A DNA stretch of 64,000 bases. Origin: a virus. The translations under genes were made by a program, and so were the position numbers. The notes under the pieces are model-generated. The model searched no databases, was not told where the DNA came from, and worked only from the letters and a program-made list of their open reading frames with translations. The stretch spans positions 21,651-85,650 of the IMG/VR virus record IMGVR_UViG_3300025011_000030; one strand, written 5' to 3'. Positions 1 through 63,670 of this stretch are shown one piece after another; positions within the stretch are counted from its first letter, which is position 1; every line of letters begins with the position of its first letter.

Positions 1-128
1 TTTTTAATTCGGTTAGAGCATTCAGCTTGGAAGGAGCCGGGTATTGAAACTACGAATAAGGAGTTTTATAACAAGCGAAATAAGAACTGTAAAACTCTCA
101 AGCGAAACAGATAGCTGAACAGGTTAAA
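1..128 (+). other. Possible structured RNA segment, unidentified
   Basis: No open frame of note is seen here. Paired arms are visible: GAGTTTTA (about 62-69) with TAAAACTC (about 91-98), and an outer TTCAGCT near 21 with AGCTGAA near 113. A terminator-like hairpin follows at 130-163. The 5' end may lie outside the window. It could be an RNA gene, a leader, or chance pairing. Confidence 0.25.
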
Positions 129-129
129 A

Positions 130-163
130 AGTCGCTCACTTAAAAAAGTGGGTGACTTTTTTT
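130..163 (+). terminator. Rho-independent terminator
   Basis: The arms AGTCGCTCACTT and AAGTGGGTGACT form a stem with one mismatch around an A-rich loop, followed by a run of seven T. The loop carries the CTTAAAAA half of the recurring promoter-like element, so termination and re-initiation may overlap here. Confidence 0.75.
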
Positions 164-168
164 ATATG
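139..168 (+). promoter_or_regulatory. CTTAAAAA / TATATG promoter-like element 1
   Basis: CTTAAAAA at 139 and TATATG at 163 match the spacing of the recurring two-part element found before about ten genes in this window. The small gene at 207 with an AAGGAGGG site follows. It overlaps a terminator hairpin, so the match alone is weaker here than at copies without a hairpin. Confidence 0.45.
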
Positions 169-3680: not shown

Positions 3681-3695
3681 AAGGAATTGGTTACC

Positions 3696-4385
3696 GTGGT
3701 AAATACAGCTGAGTGTAAGAACTCTAATATACATCCATCGTTAAATTTTAGAATAGACGACTATGATTTGCAGTTAGTTATAAGGGCGAAAACTGACGAA
3801 CGGTCGTTTGATAATTTGTTTAACCGACCCAAGTCGCAGAAGATACGTCAGGTTATGGCTCGGAGGTATTGGGCTCCCGGAGCAGACTTTGACGATCTGT
3901 TGCAAATAGCTAACATAGGGTTCTGGTTTGCCGTTCGTGACTTTAACCCTGAAAGGGATACTAAGTTTCTAATTTTTATGAAGATTTGCATAAAAAGACT
4001 TCTTATAACATTCTTAAAGTTTTCAACCAGGCAAAAACAAATGCCGTTAAATTTTTCACGTTCTTACGATGCTTGTATTTACGACGGTTCAACCGAAACA
4101 TTGTTAAATAAAGTTCCAGATTACGATGCAGACCCTATTGCATGTATATTGAAGGTAGCCGACTGTAACGACCTCTTGGTCGTTCTTTCGGAATTCCTTA
4201 GTACTTTAGAATACGATATCCTGATAATGCGGTATATTGAGGGTTTAGATTACGAACAAATTGCACACATTCGGCGGTGCTCGATTAAGCGAGTCAACAA
4301 TGCCCTTCAACGAGTCAAGAAAAAGGCATTAAAGCACAAAGCCAAGGTATTAAATGATTGCTATTTTATACAAAGAGGAAGGTGA
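3696..4385 (+). CDS. RNA polymerase sigma factor, SigH-like
   Basis: 229 residues. Region 2 is seen around FDDLLQIANIGFWFAVRDF and the following helix KICIKRLLITFLKF; the RQKQMPLNFS segment matches the SigH/Spo0H type. Region 4 is LSTLEYDILIMRYIEGLDYEQIA followed by an HTH helix with RVNNALQRVKKK. It should direct RNA polymerase to a subset of phage promoters; the recurring CTTAAAAA/TATATA elements are the obvious candidates (inference). GTG at 3696 is 10 bases after AAGGA. It overlaps no upstream gene and ends 8 bases before the next start. Confidence 0.85.
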   Translation: MVNTAECKNSNIHPSLNFRIDDYDLQLVIRAKTDERSFDNLFNRPKSQKIRQVMARRYWAPGADFDDLLQIANIGFWFAVRDFNPERDTKFLIFMKICIKRLLITFLKFSTRQKQMPLNFSRSYDACIYDGSTETLLNKVPDYDADPIACILKVADCNDLLVVLSEFLSTLEYDILIMRYIEGLDYEQIAHIRRCSIKRVNNALQRVKKKALKHKAKVLNDCYFIQRGR

Positions 4386-4843: not shown

Positions 4844-5671
4844 ATAAGTAAGGCAGATACAATTTTTATAAACATGTGTCAGAATATATTAAATAACGGA
4901 GTAACTTCAGAAGGACAAAAGGTGAGGCCGAAATGGAATGACGGAACTCCGGCACATACCGTTAAAATTTTCGGAGTGATAAATCGGTACAACCTTGCAG
5001 AGGAATTTCCAATCACTACACTCAGGCCCACTAATTTAAAAGCTGTAATAGACGAAATACTTTGGATTTGGCAAAAGAAATCGAATAACGTTAATGAACT
5101 TAATACTCGAATTTGGGATAGCTGGGCCGACTTTGACGGTTCAGTAGGTAAGACATACGGTTACCAGCTGGGTATTAAGCATAGATACCTAGAAGGGGTA
5201 TTTGATCAGGTTGACAGGGTATTATACGATTTAAAGCATAATCCTTATAGTAGAAGGATAATAACCAACATGTATAATCACCATGACCTACATGAAATGA
5301 ACTTATATCCATGCTGTTATAGCATGACATTTAATGTTATAGGTGATACATTAAGTGCCATTTTAAATCAGCGATCACAAGATGTGCTAGTCGCTAATAA
5401 TTGGGATGTATGTCACCATGCAATTGTTTTGTTAATGTTTGCACAGGTGACCGGCTTTAAAGTGGGTGAGTTAATTCATGTGATTGCTGATACGCACATT
5501 TACGACAGGCATGTTGAGGCCGTGAAGGAGCTTATTCAGCGAGAAACATATCCTGCACCCAGTTTACTTGTTAACCCTGATGTGAGAAATTTCTACGATT
5601 TTTCAGTTGACGATTTTGTACTATTGAATTACAAAAGTGGTCCTCAAATTAAAATTCCTGTAGCTGTTTAA
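4844..5671 (+). CDS. thyA: Thymidylate synthase (ATA start)
   Basis: 275 residues. ThyA converts dUMP to dTMP with methylene-tetrahydrofolate. The frame shows the expected FPITTLRPT, ELLWIWQ-like EILWIWQKKSNN, NPYSRRI, the catalytic cysteine in LYPCCYSMTF, and QRSQDVLVANNWD. The N-terminus aligns with the usual MSKAD start only if ATA at 4844 is the initiation codon: it follows AAAGGGAG by 9 bases, an in-frame stop lies at 4838, and the next ATG at 4874 would cut conserved residues. Followed after 13 bases by dCMP deaminase, whose product feeds it. Confidence 0.93.
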   Translation: MSKADTIFINMCQNILNNGVTSEGQKVRPKWNDGTPAHTVKIFGVINRYNLAEEFPITTLRPTNLKAVIDEILWIWQKKSNNVNELNTRIWDSWADFDGSVGKTYGYQLGIKHRYLEGVFDQVDRVLYDLKHNPYSRRIITNMYNHHDLHEMNLYPCCYSMTFNVIGDTLSAILNQRSQDVLVANNWDVCHHAIVLLMFAQVTGFKVGELIHVIADTHIYDRHVEAVKELIQRETYPAPSLLVNPDVRNFYDFSVDDFVLLNYKSGPQIKIPVAV

Positions 5672-6601: not shown

Positions 6602-6615
6602 TATAGAGGTAAAAT

Positions 6616-6650
6616 AAGGTCGCCTACTTAAAAATAGGTGACCTTATTTT
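6616..6650 (+). terminator. Terminator overlapping promoter-like element 2
   Basis: AAGGTCGCCTA pairs with TAGGTGACCTT, followed by a T-rich stretch. CTTAAAAA lies in the loop. Confidence 0.7.
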
Positions 6651-6655
6651 ATATA
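6627..6655 (+). promoter_or_regulatory. CTTAAAAA / TATATA promoter-like element 2
   Basis: CTTAAAAA at 6627 and TATATA at 6650-6655, 23 bases apart, just upstream of the transglycosylase gene. Confidence 0.5.
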
Positions 6656-11086: not shown

Positions 11087-11115
11087 CTTAAAAAGTGAGT
11101 AGGTGATTTTATATA
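11087..11115 (+). promoter_or_regulatory. CTTAAAAA / TATATA promoter-like element 3
   Basis: CTTAAAAA at 11087 and TATATA at 11110-11115. No terminator hairpin overlaps it, which supports a promoter reading. A set of hairpins (11117-11240) follows. Confidence 0.55.
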
Positions 11116-12904: not shown

Positions 12905-12929
12905 ACCAGGTTTCGGCCTGGTTTTTTTT
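12905..12929 (+). terminator. Rho-independent terminator
   Basis: ACCAGG, loop TTTCGG, CCTGGT, then eight T. Confidence 0.9.
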
Positions 12930-12930
12930 A

Positions 12931-12971
12931 CTTAAATTTGAGTTGCATATTACTATATAATATGTTAGAAT
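12931..12971 (+). promoter_or_regulatory. Overlapping promoter elements
   Basis: CTTAAATT (12931) with TATATA (12954-12959), and TTGCAT (12943-12948)-N17-TAGAAT (12966-12971), overlap upstream of the gene at 13005. Two polymerase forms may use the same region. Confidence 0.55.
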
Positions 12972-15092: not shown

Positions 15093-15121
15093 CTTAAAAA
15101 TGCAGTCGCTTTTTTTATATA
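15093..15121 (+). promoter_or_regulatory. CTTAAAAA / TATATA promoter-like element 4
   Basis: CTTAAAAA at 15093, TATATA at 15116-15121. It lies after, not within, a separate terminator hairpin and precedes the helicase gene. Confidence 0.55.
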
Positions 15122-17517: not shown

Positions 17518-17546
17518 CTTAAAATAGGCTCTTGTATATTTATATA
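17518..17546 (+). promoter_or_regulatory. CTTAAAAT / TATATA promoter-like element 8
   Basis: CTTAAAAT at 17518 and TATATA at 17541-17546. A TTGTAT box (17532) lies inside but has no -10 at 17 bases; CTCTTG and CAAGAG also form an inverted repeat around the AT-rich core. Confidence 0.5.
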
Positions 17547-17596
17547 TAATATGCAAGAGCTTTTATTGTTAGCTAAATTATCGGAGGTGACTGTTC

Positions 17597-26097: not shown

Positions 26098-26127
26098 CTT
26101 AAAAAGAGTCATACTTCTTTTTATATA
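26098..26127 (+). promoter_or_regulatory. CTTAAAAA / TATATA promoter-like element 5
   Basis: CTTAAAAA at 26098 and TATATA at 26122-26127. No hairpin overlaps it; it precedes the HAD gene by about 35 bases. Confidence 0.6.
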
Positions 26128-38775: not shown

Positions 38776-38805
38776 CTTAAAATACCTCCAGCTATTATTT
38801 ATACA
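38776..38805 (+). promoter_or_regulatory. CTTAAAAT / TATACA promoter-like element 9 (integrase)
   Basis: CTTAAAAT at 38776 and TATACA at 38800-38805. The predicted transcript start (about 38812) falls inside the right arm of the hairpin at 38807-38817. Confidence 0.5.
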
Positions 38806-38817: not shown

Positions 38818-38824
38818 GATTATT

Positions 38825-39667
38825 TTGTTATTAACCGAATCTTACAAATTATACGATGCTGACAAACGGTTACTTGGTTATTCGCCACATACATTAACAG
38901 CTTACGGGTTACAAATAAAACTACTTATTCGGGATATAGGGGATGTTGAAATTTCAACTGTTACCTACTTACAACTGAAGGAATATTTGATTAAACAAGA
39001 GCATCTTAAGCCGGCTTCAGTTGGTCACCGAATAAGGTTCATTAGATCGTTTTTCAGATATCTGCACGAAGAAGGATTCATGGAACGAAATATTTCGGCC
39101 AAACTTAGGGAACCCAAACAAGGTACTAGGGTTCCAAAGTTTTTAAACGAAGAAGAAGTTGAATTGTTAAGGGATAGCTGTAATACTTTACTTGAAAAGT
39201 CTCTCACTGAATTTTTCTATGCCACAGGATGTAGGATTGGTGAAGTAGCAGGTCTCAACCGAAAGGATATTGATTGGGACTCCCGGTCGGCTATGGTTAT
39301 TGGTAAAGGTGACAAACAACGGGAAGTGTACTTTACTGTCAAGTGCCGAGTATGGTTACAGAAGTATTTACAAAGTCGAACCGATGATTGCGAAGCTTTG
39401 TTTGTTACCGTGCGAAAACCTATTCGCAGAATGTCTATAGCTAGGATTAGAGAAGTCATAAAAGCTGTTGCCCAACATTCTGAAGTTGAGACTAATGTTT
39501 ATCCTCATCGGTGGCGACACACTACAGCCACTGTTATGGTTAACAATGGAGCTCCTATTGAAGTAATACAGTCTAACTTGGGTCACGCTAGACCAACTAC
39601 TACAATGATATATGCGCACTTATCTGGCGAACGTCGCCGTCAAGAGTACAACAGGTATTTTAGGTAA
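38825..39667 (+). CDS. int: Tyrosine recombinase/integrase
   Basis: 280 residues. N-terminal SAM-like arm-binding domain, then the catalytic set: R in TGCRIGEVAGL, H and R in YPHRWRHT, H in LGHARPTT and the Tyr in TMIYAHLS. XerC/D-like size. It catalyses site-specific recombination, for lysogeny or dimer resolution. TTG 38825 after GGAGGTGA. Its place inside the tail module is unusual, and no att-like repeat is apparent beside it. Confidence 0.9.
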   Translation: MLLTESYKLYDADKRLLGYSPHTLTAYGLQIKLLIRDIGDVEISTVTYLQLKEYLIKQEHLKPASVGHRIRFIRSFFRYLHEEGFMERNISAKLREPKQGTRVPKFLNEEEVELLRDSCNTLLEKSLTEFFYATGCRIGEVAGLNRKDIDWDSRSAMVIGKGDKQREVYFTVKCRVWLQKYLQSRTDDCEALFVTVRKPIRRMSIARIREVIKAVAQHSEVETNVYPHRWRHTTATVMVNNGAPIEVIQSNLGHARPTTTMIYAHLSGERRRQEYNRYFR

Positions 39668-47094: not shown

Positions 47095-49557
47095 TTGAGT
47101 TGGCCGAAGTATAACCACGACCTAAAAAATACGGGTTTGAGTACCTACAAAGTAGTTGACCCGCCAGTACAAAAACTTTGGGAATTTACGACTGGAGGTG
47201 CTATAAATCAACCTCCCGTAATCGGCCCTGATGGTACAATTTATTTTGGTTCCAGTGATGGCTATCTTTATGCAGTATACCCTATTAGTGGGGTGCAGAA
47301 GTGGCGGTTTCAACTAGGAACCGATTCTCCCGCAGCGGTAATAGGTGCCGATGGAACGATATATACCAGAAACCAAAGCACGATCTACGCATTAAACCCT
47401 AGCGGCACTGTAAAATGGTTTTTTGATAACGTAGGTTATGTGATGCTTGACACTATCCCAATGACCATAACAGCCGACGAAACGTATCTCCTTATTCCTG
47501 TCTATGACAGCGGTCTGGAAGTTGGAAATGTCTGGCGCTTAGACATAGTATCAGATCCAAAGGCGATAAGCATTATCTACCATTGGTACGACAAAGTATT
47601 TACACCAGCAATAGGATCTGACGGAACGGTGTATATAACCAGTGATGAACACGAACTTGCTGCATTAAATCCAGACGGTTCAGCTAAATGGGAATTTCCA
47701 GTACCTTATTACACAACGAATTCTCCAGCGATAGGCCAGGATGGTGCAATTCATTTTGGAGCCGGAACTGTCCTATACGCAATCAACCAAGATGGTACTA
47801 AAAAGTGGGAACTCAATTTATATGTAGGACTTCAAAGTCCGTCTATCGGCCCTGATGGTACTATATATATCGCTAGTTCAAGATACTTACACGCAATTAG
47901 CCCTGACGGTACTCAGAAATGGGAGTATTATTTATCTTGGTCATGGAGAAACCTATCTATTGACTCTGACGGCGTCGTTTATACTATCAGAGGTGAGTCT
48001 GGAATTGCTGTTGAAGCTATCTATCCCCAAGGTACCAGTAAGTGGAGTTTAACCCTTAATGCCGCGATGTCTTACGCTCCAGTGATCGCATCTAATGGTT
48101 TTTTATATGTAGGTTCTGCGAATGGTAAACTGTACGCTATGGGTCCTCCCAGCTTTATAGTCTTAAATTGTAATCCGAGCAGTGGTACACCAATTGGTAC
48201 TGAGCAATCGCTGGAACTTAGCTTTAGCGAATCTATCGACGCAAATACTGTAAATCTGTCTTCTGTCCAGTTGAATAGTTCGTTTAAGTGGACTTACGAC
48301 GATATAGAGAAAAAACTTACATTACTTGGTGCTACCGGTGAGTGGACAGCTAACTCACATTTAACGCTCAGCCTAACTTCTGCACTAAAGGACATATATG
48401 GTAGACCTCTGGCCAATCCTACATCATACGAATGGGATGTTATTGGCTCATCACCGGCGACATATTACGTCAGGACCGATGGGGACGATGCTAACAACGG
48501 CCTGGGACCGGAACAGGAAAACGCTTTTCAGACCATTTCCCACGCAATTAATATAGCAGTAGCTAACGGTGCAAATGGGATAAAAATCTATATAGCCCCT
48601 GGAACATATAGTGAGTATATACAACCTTCCGGTTATCCTCACTACAATAATTTGATTGTCGAAGGCGACACCAGTGGAAAGTTATTTGACTTATCAAGTG
48701 GTTCCGTTATAGCTAATTATATTTATTGTAATCATGGTGGTGGGCAGGATTCGGTTGTTACCTACAAAAACATTATCGTTATCAACTCCGTGTATAGTTC
48801 GGATGATAATGGAGAAAATTGCAGTCTGACTTTAATTAATATAGTTACAAAAAATGGTGGCTTCTATCTAAACTCTGATACAACATATGTTTTAGCGGTT
48901 AACTGTACCTCTTGGAATGGGTTTTTTACAGGCGATGGTGATTTTTATAACTGCATAACTCCTTATGGGTTTTACCCTGGATTGGCTAGAATCTATAATT
49001 GCATGGCTCCAAATGTTTACCCTTCCAGTGGAAGTATAGTAGAGGAACATATATACGAATCACCACAATTTATAGATAGGGCCAGTAATGACTTTCGCTT
49101 AGTTGAGGGTAGTCCTGGTAGGGATAGTGGGGTGGAGGTTGAAAATTATTCGCCCGATATTTACGGAGGTTTACGTATTTCAACACCGGATCGCGGGGCT
49201 GCAGAGGTAGTAGCTCCACTTGTCTCAGACCCACCAATTATTCTAGGCCCGATGCCCATTAGGTGCGCTAAGCCTATGGTGGTGCTACAGGCACCTGTGC
49301 CGGTCGGGAATTGGTTGCTACATTTCAAAATAGAGAGCTTTTCAGATGCGGAGGGAACTATCCCAATAGCAGTAGTAGACAGCAGTATTAACCCTGAGCT
49401 ATTTGAGTACAGCACAGATGGCGGTTTAATATGGACAGCTTTTCCGGAGACTGGTTTACCGCAGGACAAATACGGGGCGTTGGTTAGGGCGAGGTGCGAG
49501 GTAGGCCCAAGACAGCAAGTCTGGTTAAAAGCCAGTGTAGGAGCAGAGGACGCATAA
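47095..49557 (+). CDS. PQQ-like beta-propeller and beta-helix receptor-binding protein
   Basis: 820 residues. Residues ~25-350 contain repeated IGPDGTIYFGSSDGYLYA-type blades with KW.F spacers, as in PQQ/Kelch-like propellers. Then an Ig-like domain (~350-450), a right-handed beta-helix starting YYVRTDGDDANNGLGPEQ (~455-700) and an end domain. TTG 47095. Likely the tail receptor-binding protein; no signal peptide. Confidence 0.75.
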   Translation: MSWPKYNHDLKNTGLSTYKVVDPPVQKLWEFTTGGAINQPPVIGPDGTIYFGSSDGYLYAVYPISGVQKWRFQLGTDSPAAVIGADGTIYTRNQSTIYALNPSGTVKWFFDNVGYVMLDTIPMTITADETYLLIPVYDSGLEVGNVWRLDIVSDPKAISIIYHWYDKVFTPAIGSDGTVYITSDEHELAALNPDGSAKWEFPVPYYTTNSPAIGQDGAIHFGAGTVLYAINQDGTKKWELNLYVGLQSPSIGPDGTIYIASSRYLHAISPDGTQKWEYYLSWSWRNLSIDSDGVVYTIRGESGIAVEAIYPQGTSKWSLTLNAAMSYAPVIASNGFLYVGSANGKLYAMGPPSFIVLNCNPSSGTPIGTEQSLELSFSESIDANTVNLSSVQLNSSFKWTYDDIEKKLTLLGATGEWTANSHLTLSLTSALKDIYGRPLANPTSYEWDVIGSSPATYYVRTDGDDANNGLGPEQENAFQTISHAINIAVANGANGIKIYIAPGTYSEYIQPSGYPHYNNLIVEGDTSGKLFDLSSGSVIANYIYCNHGGGQDSVVTYKNIIVINSVYSSDDNGENCSLTLINIVTKNGGFYLNSDTTYVLAVNCTSWNGFFTGDGDFYNCITPYGFYPGLARIYNCMAPNVYPSSGSIVEEHIYESPQFIDRASNDFRLVEGSPGRDSGVEVENYSPDIYGGLRISTPDRGAAEVVAPLVSDPPIILGPMPIRCAKPMVVLQAPVPVGNWLLHFKIESFSDAEGTIPIAVVDSSINPELFEYSTDGGLIWTAFPETGLPQDKYGALVRARCEVGPRQQVWLKASVGAEDA

Positions 49558-49607
49558 TGTACTTCCGAACGAACAGGGATTATTTTATTCTGGTTACCGA
49601 GGGGTGA
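49557..49607 (+). CDS. Tiny open frame before holin gene
   Basis: 16 codons (ATG overlapping the preceding TAA). No ribosome binding site of note. May be translated by coupling, or be meaningless. Confidence 0.2.
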   Translation: MYFRTNRDYFILVTEG

Positions 49608-49612
49608 GGTGA

Positions 49613-49813
49613 GTGGAAACTGAAGCTTTAAAAATGGCATCAAGTCAAGGTTTTTTCGCGTTTCTTTTTGTTTGTCTACTTTTTTATGTCCTAAAAGAAA
49701 ACGCAAGGCGCGAGTCACAATATCAAAAGACAATTGATACACTAGCACAAAAATTTGATATTGTCGATAAAATTGAGAAAGATGTGGTGGAAATTAAGAC
49801 TCATGTAATGTAG
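49613..49813 (+). CDS. BhlA/UviB-like holin-associated protein
   Basis: 66 residues. N-terminal span QGFFAFLFVCLLFYVL, then a charged coiled helix, the layout of the BhlA/UviB family that permeabilises membranes. GTG with GAGGTGAG upstream. Adjacent to amidase. Confidence 0.75.
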   Translation: METEALKMASSQGFFAFLFVCLLFYVLKENARRESQYQKTIDTLAQKFDIVDKIEKDVVEIKTHVM

Positions 49814-49828
49814 AAGGGAGTAAAATCA

Positions 49829-50041
49829 ATGAAAACGGAGTTCACTAAGATGGATTGGTTTCTTGCTATTTGCATGGCCCTCTGTTTACTGGTCTATTTG
49901 TATAGCTGTGTAAACGGTGAACCGGCCGAACAGGTTAAGGATTTGATGCAGTATTTTGGGATTGGTTTAGGGTTGACTGCTGGCAAGACAGTCGTCAACA
50001 ATATTGTCACCAGTAGTAAGGAGGACGATAAAAATGTATGA
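49829..50041 (+). CDS. Small membrane protein, putative holin
   Basis: 70 residues, ATG with AAGGGAG. Two hydrophobic segments (FLAICMALCLLVYLYS and a weaker FGIGLGLTAGK) and a charged tail. Part of the lysis cassette; the end overlaps the amidase by 8 bases. Confidence 0.6.
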   Translation: MKTEFTKMDWFLAICMALCLLVYLYSCVNGEPAEQVKDLMQYFGIGLGLTAGKTVVNNIVTSSKEDDKNV

Positions 50042-52121: not shown

Positions 52122-52250
52122 ATGTTTGTTGAGTTTTCACTTGTTCAAACTGTTCAGAATATTGCATGGTTAACTGGAGTTATATTGTCTGGGTACGGTA
52201 TAGCCGAATTATTGATTTCAGGGTTAGAGAGTTATATAAAGAGTCGGTAA
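52122..52250 (+). CDS. Small membrane protein (42 aa)
   Basis: ATG directly abutting the preceding stop; AAAGGAGG upstream. One span (IAWLTGVILSGYGIAELLI). First of three small membrane proteins before the large ATPase. Confidence 0.55.
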   Translation: MFVEFSLVQTVQNIAWLTGVILSGYGIAELLISGLESYIKSR

Positions 52251-52388
52251 GTTATTTCATAAATGACCAAACTACCAACCCAAAGCCTATAACGATTTTA
52301 ATTCCAGCAGCTAATGGAGGCATCTACTTCACCTTCCTTATTTTTTTTGTTATTGTATAGTATTAACCAAGAAAGGGTGATTATATAC

Positions 52389-52697
52389 GTGACGAAATTT
52401 AAAAAATTTAACTCTTTTTTATTAGCTATTTATTATACACTTCTTCCGTATACTGTTCAGGCGTCAGCCGGTTTAGATGGAGCTTCACGGCTAATTGATA
52501 AGCTCCAATCGGCTGCCCTGTGGTTTGGTTTAGCTTTAGGTATTTGGGGAATATATGAATGGATGATGGGCTCGCCGGGTGGGTTAGATAGGTTCAAACG
52601 GGCCGTACTTGGCTATGTTGCCATACTGTTGATGCCGTTATTGTTTTTTGAGCTTCGGGACTCGTTTAGTATAAAAACATTTCGCGGTAATAAGTAG
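52389..52697 (+). CDS. Membrane protein, pilin- or VirB2-like layout
   Basis: 102 residues. N-terminal hydrophobic segment ending TVQASAG, a possible cleavage site, then two spans (ALWFGLALGIWGIYEWM and AVLGYVAILLMPLLFF). Size and layout recall VirB2/TrbC-type pilins but no sequence signature confirms this. GTG after AAGGGTGA. Confidence 0.5.
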   Translation: MTKFKKFNSFLLAIYYTLLPYTVQASAGLDGASRLIDKLQSAALWFGLALGIWGIYEWMMGSPGGLDRFKRAVLGYVAILLMPLLFFELRDSFSIKTFRGNK

Positions 52698-52705
52698 GTG
52701 ATAAC

Positions 52706-53008
52706 ATGTTTAAAGGGCTATTTGAAAAGGTAAATACGTGGTTTACGGGCAAGGTAGACGCAGCCGTTAACAATGCTGTAAACAAAACAAGTCAGGCCGT
52801 TACTGACAAAGCTGCTGAGATAGCTACGAGTAAGGTTGAGACTTTGTGGGATTGGGTTGTTCATTTTGTCGTGACCGGAGAATCGGTTCTAACCATTATC
52901 ACGATTGTATTCATACTTTTATGGATGTTGGGTATGGATAGATTTGGTATGTATGCAAAATGGCTTTTCGGTATTTACTTCCTAATTTGGGTGGTGATAT
53001 CAGCTTGA
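52706..53008 (+). CDS. Membrane protein with amphipathic N-terminus
   Basis: 100 residues. A long amphipathic helix (VDAAVNNAVNKTSQAVTDKA) precedes two spans (SVLTIITIVFILLWML and WLFGIYFLIWVVI). The stop overlaps the start of the ATPase gene, so the two are likely made together. Confidence 0.6.
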   Translation: MFKGLFEKVNTWFTGKVDAAVNNAVNKTSQAVTDKAAEIATSKVETLWDWVVHFVVTGESVLTIITIVFILLWMLGMDRFGMYAKWLFGIYFLIWVVISA

Positions 53009-56954: not shown

Positions 56955-58664
56955 ATGGTAAACGTACAACTTCGTAAAGCTAATAAGCTAAAAGCTCCCG
57001 AAGCTTTATTCGTTAATTTTCCGTACGACATGCAAAAGGTCGAAAAAATTAAGTCACTGCCGGTACGGTTTTATGACCCAGGCACTAAGTCGTGGGAAGT
57101 GCCTGTACACGAAATTAATGACGTGATTCAACTGTTCGACGGTGAGCGATTAACTATTACCGGGAAAGTAACTACCAAATGTAAGAGTGCTTCAGTAGCT
57201 CAACCGACTGTAGTAGTTCCGTTGAATACGACTAAGATTGAAAAGCTTATCAGCGAGCACCCATTCAAAGTTAAACCGTTTGATCATCAGTTAGAAGGTT
57301 TCCGTCATGCATTAAGTACTCCCAAATTCCTACTCGGCGACGAACAAGGTTTAGGAAAAAGTATGCAGGCTATTCATACAGCGATCGCCCGTAAAAACGA
57401 ATTCAAATACTGCTTGGTTATTTGCGGAGTTAATACGTTGAAATGGAACTGGATGGAGGAAATAAAAATACATAGTAACGAAAACGGTCATATCATAGGT
57501 AGTAAGCGCGACAGCCGAGGCCGAATTCAGGACGGTTCTGTAAAAGAGCGAGTCGCCGATTTAGACCGTGATATCCCGGCACTGTTTTTAATCACTAACA
57601 TCGAAACATTAAGGAACGTTAAAATACAGGAAAAACTGAAGCAGATGTGCGACGACGGCATTATAGGAATGGTTATATTCGACGAGTGCCATGCTTCTAA
57701 GAACCCAACGTCACAGCAGGGCAAAGCTATTCACAAGTTAAATGCTACTTACAAAATGGCAATGACCGGCACTCCGTTAATGAACAACCCGATGGATTTA
57801 TATAATTTGTTAAAATGGCTTGGAGCTGAAACCCATAATTTTTACCAGTTTAGAGCTCGTTACTGTATAATGGGTGGTTACGAGGGTCGTGAAATAGTAG
57901 GTTATAAGAACATGAACGAGTTAAGAGACAGAGTATCTGCTGTTATGTTACGTCGTAAAAAAGATGAAGTACTTAACTTACCTCCTAAAATTAAGACCAC
58001 CGAATACGTTGAAATGACAGCTAAGCAGGCCCAGCTATACCGCGAGGTCAAAGAAGTAATCATGCAGAATATTGACGAAGTAGTTTTAAGCGATAACCCA
58101 TTGGCACAGTTGTTAAGACTTCGCCAAGTAACCGGGCATACCAGTATATTAAGTCAAAAAATTAGCGAATCGGCTAAAATGGATAGGCTTAAAGAACTTG
58201 TTCAGGAAGTAACTGAAAGTGGTGGTAAGGTTATTGTGTTTAGTAACTGGACTCAAATAACCAACATTATTGAAAAGGAGTTAGCTAGTTATAACCCGGC
58301 CGTGATCACAGGTGAAATTAAAGACAGGCAGGGAATGGTTAATAAATTCCAAAACGACCCAACTTGTAAAGTCATTGTCGGCACAGTAGGTGCAATGGGC
58401 ACAGGTTTAACATTAACTGCAGCTAATACAGTTATATTTATTGATAAGCCTTGGAACCCTGCCCGCACAGAGCAATCCGAAGATAGAGCGCATAGAATTG
58501 GAACTACAGGCACGGTCAGTATTATCAGCCTCGTAACCCGCGATACTATTGACGAAAGGATTGAAGAAATTTTAGTTGAAAAAGGTGATTTAGTAGAAGC
58601 TCTTATTGAAGGTAAAATGAACAAACTAAGTAAAAAAGAGTTGGTTGACCGCCTGTTAAGTTAA
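56955..58664 (+). CDS. SNF2-family DNA helicase/translocase
   Basis: 569 residues. A ~100-residue HARP-like lead (YDPGTKSWEVPVHE), then Q-motif FDHQLEGFRHAL, motif I GDEQGLGKS, motif II IFDECHASKN, motif III MTGTPLMNNP, motif V GTVGAMGTGLTLTAA and motif VI QSEDRAHRIG. It remodels DNA using ATP, possibly fork reversal or annealing as in SMARCAL1-like enzymes. Own promoter; ATG after GGAGGTCAA. Confidence 0.92.
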   Translation: MVNVQLRKANKLKAPEALFVNFPYDMQKVEKIKSLPVRFYDPGTKSWEVPVHEINDVIQLFDGERLTITGKVTTKCKSASVAQPTVVVPLNTTKIEKLISEHPFKVKPFDHQLEGFRHALSTPKFLLGDEQGLGKSMQAIHTAIARKNEFKYCLVICGVNTLKWNWMEEIKIHSNENGHIIGSKRDSRGRIQDGSVKERVADLDRDIPALFLITNIETLRNVKIQEKLKQMCDDGIIGMVIFDECHASKNPTSQQGKAIHKLNATYKMAMTGTPLMNNPMDLYNLLKWLGAETHNFYQFRARYCIMGGYEGREIVGYKNMNELRDRVSAVMLRRKKDEVLNLPPKIKTTEYVEMTAKQAQLYREVKEVIMQNIDEVVLSDNPLAQLLRLRQVTGHTSILSQKISESAKMDRLKELVQEVTESGGKVIVFSNWTQITNIIEKELASYNPAVITGEIKDRQGMVNKFQNDPTCKVIVGTVGAMGTGLTLTAANTVIFIDKPWNPARTEQSEDRAHRIGTTGTVSIISLVTRDTIDERIEEILVEKGDLVEALIEGKMNKLSKKELVDRLLS

Positions 58665-59295: not shown

Positions 59296-59301
59296 CTCAG
59301 T

Positions 59302-59336
59302 GCCCTACTTAAAAAGTAGGGCCTTACTTTTTATAT
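59302..59336 (+). terminator. Terminator overlapping promoter-like element 6
   Basis: GCCCTAC pairs with GTAGGGC around TTAAAAA, then CTTACTTTTT. Confidence 0.7.
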
Positions 59337-59337
59337 A
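59308..59337 (+). promoter_or_regulatory. CTTAAAAA / TATATA promoter-like element 6
   Basis: CTTAAAAA at 59308, TATATA at 59332-59337; within a terminator-like hairpin. Confidence 0.5.
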
Positions 59338-63634: not shown

Positions 63635-63663
63635 AAGCTCACTTAAAAAGTGGGCTTTTTTTA
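63635..63663 (+). terminator. Terminator overlapping promoter-like element 7
   Basis: AAGCTCACTT pairs with AAGTGGGCTT, then a T run. Confidence 0.75.
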
Positions 63664-63670
63664 TTATATA
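63642..63670 (+). promoter_or_regulatory. CTTAAAAA / TATATA promoter-like element 7
   Basis: CTTAAAAA at 63642, TATATA at 63665-63670, just upstream of the last, partial gene. Confidence 0.5.

Follow-up and report, generated by a model that had tools for sequence, protein, structure and literature searches.

A recurring element in phages whose replication genes resemble those of Dp-1 is very probably a phage promoter, in about half of its copies combined with a terminator-like hairpin

A short element, in which CTTAAAA is followed at a nearly constant distance by TATATA, recurs along the genome of an uncultivated virus, and the copy at 11087..11115 raises the question whether such copies are promoters, terminators or both, and which factor would read them. 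The window analysed here comprises 64,000 bases (bases 21,651-85,650 of the 85,650-base virus record, hereafter G000); coordinates refer to the window unless they are marked as record positions. It belongs to a tailed phage, with terminase, portal, major head and tape-measure proteins and an integrase, and also codes for three clamp-loader subunits, thymidylate synthase and an anaerobic ribonucleotide reductase. The gene content of G000 is similar to that of the Streptococcus phages Dp-1 and MS1, and its gene relatives suggest that the hosts are probably Firmicutes. Among phage records, nothing close to the first 20 kb of the window was found at the DNA level, and no Rfam family was detected in the window. 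A contig from another assembly (L165) spans both ends of the record and overlaps by about 133 bases, so that the record is very probably circular and probably represents a complete genome; the sample of this contig also contained near-copies (L162, L168, L175, L188) of one of the related phages described below (G002).

Copies of the element in G000 and related phages

The initial annotation had listed ten copies, all on the plus strand and with a distance of 23-24 bases between the two parts. All ten were confirmed in the sequence, at 139..168, 6627..6655, 11087..11115, 12931..12959 (the variant CTTAAAT), 15093..15121, 17518..17546, 26098..26127, 38776..38805, 59308..59337 and 63642..63670. 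Each lies on the plus strand, and TATATA starts 23 or 24 bases after the start of CTTAAAA or CTTAAAT. The annotation had described TATATA for every copy; this applies to eight of the ten, the copies at 139 and 38776 having TATATG and TATACA, respectively. Two further copies precede the window, at record 5630 and 11014, which brings G000 to 12. When the full record was searched with the strict pattern CTTAAAA...TTTATA, as the annotation had proposed, ten matches were obtained on the plus strand and none on the minus strand or with the reversed control, compared to a mean of 0.20 and a maximum of 2 (both strands summed) in 300 dinucleotide shuffles of the record. With G000 left out of the training set, a weight matrix gave 12 plus-strand places scoring 14 bits or more and none on the minus strand, whereas 30 shuffles averaged 0.57 per strand; one of these places (record 20810) is coding, and the copy at 38776 scored only 12.4 bits. 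None of the 12 copies lies wholly within a plus-strand ORF of at least 100 amino acids, with an ORF-free share of only 15% of the record, and the few relaxed intragenic matches (record 7964, 30243 and 39018) were excluded from the copies. The motif is thus repeated ahead of phage operons beyond chance, as is typical of promoters that depend on a phage sigma factor.

Relatives with the element were obtained from a clamp-loader search, in which 80 of 163 loci were kept and four (L020, L077, L079 and L080) contained the element. The records behind three of these loci are G001 (67.8 kb), G002 (92 kb) and G004 (a 17 kb fragment). Two more phages, G006 and G008, were added via a search with the sigma factor described below and are hence not independent of its presence. 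In total, 46 copies were curated by hand (G000, 12; G001, 10; G002, 13; G004, 4; G006, 5; G008, 2), which occupy a single strand per phage and are mostly intergenic. Their consensus starts with CTTAAAAA; some 8 unconstrained bases, a T-run and a further 1-2 bases lead to TATATA, with a spacer of 16 bases between TTAAAA and TATATA in 39/46; the occurrence of CTTAAA in all 46 is fixed by the search pattern. Leave-one-genome-out matrices with a threshold of 14 bits gave 12, 11, 15 and 3 plus-strand matches in G000, G001, G002 and G004, respectively, and 0, 0, 1 and 0 on the minus strands; the corresponding shuffle values per strand were 0.57, 0.13, 0.37 and 0. These counts include coding and doubtful matches. 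Three matches had been dropped by hand before arriving at the 46 copies, namely G000 record 30243 and G002 39383, both coding, and G002 57927, a CTTAAAT variant at an ORF end that scored 22.1 bits and is possibly real. The G004 copy at 4939 was kept despite a long ORF around it (the PolA-like part begins at 5005), and a GTTAAAA copy behind the sigma gene of G000 is outside the 46.

The start of the next ORF is mostly found 40-85 bases downstream of the copies, and several slots recur in different phages: behind the large helicase gene (59308 in the window), at the sigma/SSB and SSB/PolA junctions and ahead of the clamp loader (139, ahead of an operon that includes a SigH-like gene). The copy at 63642 is located behind DnaB. 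Within the structural region of G000, the sole copy is that at 38776, ahead of the integrase gene. G001 has no copy before 33,918, in a stretch that holds terminase, portal and tape measure, and the region 35,750-72,069 of G002 is without copies except for the coding match at 39383 and the doubtful one at 57927; the terminase gene of G002 lies among copies. Since the structural regions are almost free of copies, the element fits a predicted middle rather than a late class of promoters. For the structural genes, no motif of late promoters was recognised in a by-eye look at one listing.

Terminator-like hairpins around the element

Each copy was folded over a span from 12 bases before the C to 20 bases from the C. 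The folding energies were bimodal, with 25/46 copies at -12 kcal/mol or below and 21/46 at -6.8 kcal/mol or weaker. The 25 copies have a G+C-rich hairpin with the -35 as its loop and the T-run of the promoter behind it, which is the form of an intrinsic terminator and is not found in the other 21. In the window, such hairpins are located on the plus strand at 126..161 (copy 139, -20.0 kcal/mol) and 6610..6651 (copy 6627, 17 pairs, -22.6 kcal/mol), and further ones surround the -35 of the copies at 59308 (59299-59324, -14.4 kcal/mol) and 63642 (-13.2 kcal/mol). The copy at 12931 is directly preceded by a separate terminator-like hairpin (12905-12922) that ends just 5' of it. From the five copies that the annotation had listed as free of terminators, 11087, 15093 and 26098 are indeed without a strong hairpin, but 17518 and 38776 have strong ones around the -10.

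Exchange of the flanks between sites of one phage led to a loss of pairing (score 16.3 versus 8.6, sd 0.46), which argues for site-specific stems and a shared loop and tail. Among the hairpin-free copies with TATAT at offset 23, T was found at offsets 19 and 20 in 16/17; since the T-run is kept without a hairpin, it appears to be a part of the promoter that is borrowed as U-tract. A stop codon within 10 bases upstream was more frequent in hairpin-free copies (10/21) than in copies with a hairpin (3/25; Fisher p 0.01). By analogy to tR2 of E. coli, for which ribosome blocking of the terminator is described in PMC4824070, a ribosome near the stop codon would block a terminator at such a site anyway.

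The hairpin and T-run in 25/46 copies could be taken to mean that the copies are terminators only, with a preferred loop sequence. We consider this scarcely credible and rejected it, as -35, T-run, -10 and spacing are retained in the 21/46 copies without a strong hairpin, TATATA is conserved although it is downstream of the hairpin, and an ORF start mostly follows at the short distance given above. The initial annotation had viewed terminator and promoter as either/or, whereas about half of the copies are apparently both at once. Termination itself is predicted for the copies with a hairpin.

The hairpins of the second layout, at 17526..17562 (plus strand, -18.5 kcal/mol, T-rich tail behind) and from 38783 to about 38818-38826 (plus strand, -19.6 kcal/mol), enclose the -10 and not the -35. 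At these two sites, read-through RNA would contain both arms of the hairpin, and RNA born at the promoter would be without the 5' arm. As the 3' arm at 38776 contains the likely ribosome site of the integrase gene, the hairpin may mask this site in read-through RNA and leave it free in promoter-born RNA. The lysozyme gene e of T4 is regulated by a read-through hairpin that masks the ribosome site. The hairpin logic of copy 38776 would be alike, with a different promoter class and a different gene.

Candidate readers of the element

The SigH-like factor encoded at 3687..4385 on the plus strand (given as 3696 in the initial annotation) had been proposed as the natural reader. Its sigma regions 2 and 4 score over the Pfam cut-offs, and the operon of its gene sits behind copy 139, but a clear orthologue was found neither in G001, G002 and G004, which bear the motif, nor in MS1 and Dp-1; a search of the records of these five relatives gave a single match, which was weak and to another sigma. 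In addition, the protein clusters with bacterial SigH in a sigma tree, and Bacillus SigH-type promoters (AGGA...GAAT type) were no more frequent in the record than expected (2 on the plus strand compared to about 2.1). With no such orthologue in the relatives searched and no excess of SigH-type promoters, we rejected this factor, whose role as reader we regard as highly improbable. Thus, the proposal of a phage-sigma regulon stands in so far as phage promoters with a phage sigma are the best reading, and the sigma named for it is probably the wrong one.

A second sigma-like gene is located left of the window (record 1581-2198), between the DnaB/primase and SSB/PolA genes, and is homologous to Dp-1 gp69 and MS1 gp74, both of which are annotated as sigma factors. 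A profile built from MS1 and Dp-1 only detected this gp69-like sigma in G001, G002, G004 and G000 with E values of 2e-15 to 1e-9 (1,080 ORFs), and a profile of G001, G002 and G004 alone detected the G000 protein at 7e-41. The sigma occurs wherever the motif clusters, in 6/6 motif phages, two of which were found through the sigma, and its presence in all relatives is also expected from common descent. In a tree of 18 sigmas, the gp69-like proteins of the six motif phages and of a further phage, G012, fall into a single clade with 100/100 support, separate from SigH. The G000 protein has no match in Pfam, where Sigma70_r2 was found in 2/6 members of the family, and it hits phrog_351 at 4e-4, which is a weak recognition of the sigma family. 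Its predicted model (pLDDT 79.8, pTM 0.52) matches mainly sigma factors, with a VIA Z of about 10, a value attainable by helical proteins, and Foldseek gave no match at E <= 0.001. Based on these associations, the gp69-like sigma would be a better candidate reader than the SigH-like factor.

Searches of larger collections gave the following picture. A DNA-pattern search of genome_contigs returned 51 stretches with one match each and no second relaxed match in any of them, which is background, and the gp69-like alignment query found nothing in this collection. In viral_contigs, the pattern search returned 25 stretches, 17 of which were motif phages or near-copies thereof; the remaining eight matched once each, and their records contained no gp69-like sigma. 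No relative was found in viral_contigs with the sigma and a 901-aa protein as queries, and no gp69-like match was found in G016 and G019, two fragments with copies of G002 sites. Four contigs (L171, L173, L177 and L184, one of 154 kb) have one site in common, with the same hairpin and TATATAA layout and without a gp69-like sigma; this site is a chance match or a stray copy.

The 300 bases upstream of the sigma gene itself were free of CTTAAAA-type copies in 11/11, which argues that this gene would be transcribed by the host polymerase first. A 10-of-12 match to a sigma-A-type promoter was found upstream of the gene in 5/11, but only 1/11 beats 95% of the shuffles. Downstream, a TATAT-like -10 is present within 60 bases of the gene end in 10/11 compared to 60/457 other plus-strand ORF ends, a pattern that was defined post hoc, and more distant phages likewise have a TATATA-like -10 just 3' of the sigma gene. 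Operator-like ATTAC-n-GTAAT palindromes were seen by eye ahead of the gene for the gp69-like sigma in G001, G002 and G004, and also in leftward promoters of MS1 (L018 16606 and 16989). G001 has further sigma-like genes at 49417-50025 and 52246-52884 (L145 9417 and 12246), each directly behind a copy (49344 and 52190); together with the SigH-like gene in the operon behind copy 139, operons with extra sigmas are thus found behind three copies, and the three sigmas of G001 suggest a possible cascade.

The phage G012 contains the sigma of the clade, and no CTTAAAA-type copies at the spacing of the element were found in its whole 55-kb record (four stretches scanned). Instead, it has seven CTTTAA-N16-YTATAT copies compared to 0.01 expected in the two stretches holding them, several of which occupy slots of the CTTAAAA element and three of which have hairpins of -12 kcal/mol or below. 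G000 has a single match to this form, and G001, G002 and G004 have none. In MS1 and Dp-1, the repeated form is ACAAA...TGTATA, with 4 and 5 matches on the plus strand, respectively, and none on the minus strand; one of the Dp-1 matches lies within gp52. At the level of sequence, the dialect shifts along with the phage sigma in G012, MS1 and Dp-1, which are few lineages.

These dialects also bear on whether the sites could be read by the housekeeping sigma-A of the host, either unaided or together with a phage activator of the MotA type at CTTAAAAA. TTAAAA-18-TATATT is an acceptable match for sigma-A, the TATATA-like -10 is near the sigma-A consensus, and several sites score 9 of 12 in a simple sigma-70 scan (e.g. 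6628, 11088 and 15094). Nevertheless, we consider this reading unlikely, as the final T of the sigma-A -10 is not kept (2/46 for the TATATA hexamer and 20/46 for the hexamer two bases on), the -35 of the element is without the G and C of TTGACA, and the dialect follows the phage sigma clade. The A2/T6 pattern of a housekeeping -10 and a TTGACA-like -35 were accordingly not found.

A probable promoter with a putative built-in terminator

The element is very probably a phage promoter. The explanation that we favour, and regard as likely, is a middle promoter of phages with Dp-1-like replication genes that is read by a sigma of the gp69 family and is fused with terminators in about half of its copies; transcription start, recognition by the gp69-like sigma, termination and timing are what we infer here. 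The -35 would be CTTAAAAA, the spacer its 16 bases with the conserved T-run, the -10 TATATA, and the reader host RNA polymerase with the phage sigma of the Dp-1 gp69/MS1 gp74 family. Following transcription of the sigma gene by the host polymerase, the sigma would open a regulon that includes the SSB/PolA slot behind its own gene and the operons with extra sigmas. In about half of the copies, some eight bases on each side of CTTAAAAA would pair, such that the -35 becomes the loop and the T-run the U-tract; the upstream operon would be stopped where the next one starts, and the fused copies would insulate each operon.

The gp28 and gp33/34 promoters of SPO1 are phage-sigma promoters. Phage-sigma promoters are also described in PMC4331800 for phiEco32 gp36 and Salmonella phage 7-11. 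All of these resemble the element in having a phage sigma, copies ahead of operons, host-type transcription first and a non-host motif. The element differs from them in its motif, the presence of both a full -35 and a full -10 separated by a 16-base spacer, its probable Firmicutes hosts and the nesting of many copies in terminators. The annotated promoters of Dp-1 and MS1 share with it a related sigma (gp69/gp74), the gene order and a promoter behind the sigma gene, but have the form ACAAA...TGTATA, and the records do not name gp69 or gp74 as its reader. No title or abstract on the motif or on a -35 in a terminator loop was found in the literature searched, which covered few subscription journals.

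A more speculative idea, which we hold to be rather unlikely, is that the fused copies act as a hand-over switch: polymerase releasing the upstream RNA in the T-run would be captured on the -35/-10 by the phage sigma and restart in place. In PMC6978380, restart at nearby promoters after intrinsic termination is described in vitro and is commoner with added sigma. The two systems have in common a terminator and a promoter close together and a restart aided by sigma, the latter conjectural for the element; the published one is an E. coli in vitro system with separate terminator and promoter, whereas both overlap in the element. If the idea were true, one short sequence would turn host-driven into phage-sigma transcription, operon by operon. 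With its own A-rich -35 as loop and its T-run as U-tract, the promoter would need changes in only about eight flanking bases to gain or lose a terminator.

On this reading, the element would provide this phage group with a defined regulon, and its overlap with a terminator would offer a small, naturally occurring system in which to study how polymerase is recycled once it has terminated. In addition, the sigma family, with its several promoter dialects in common gene slots, would be a natural data set for sigma-promoter co-evolution.
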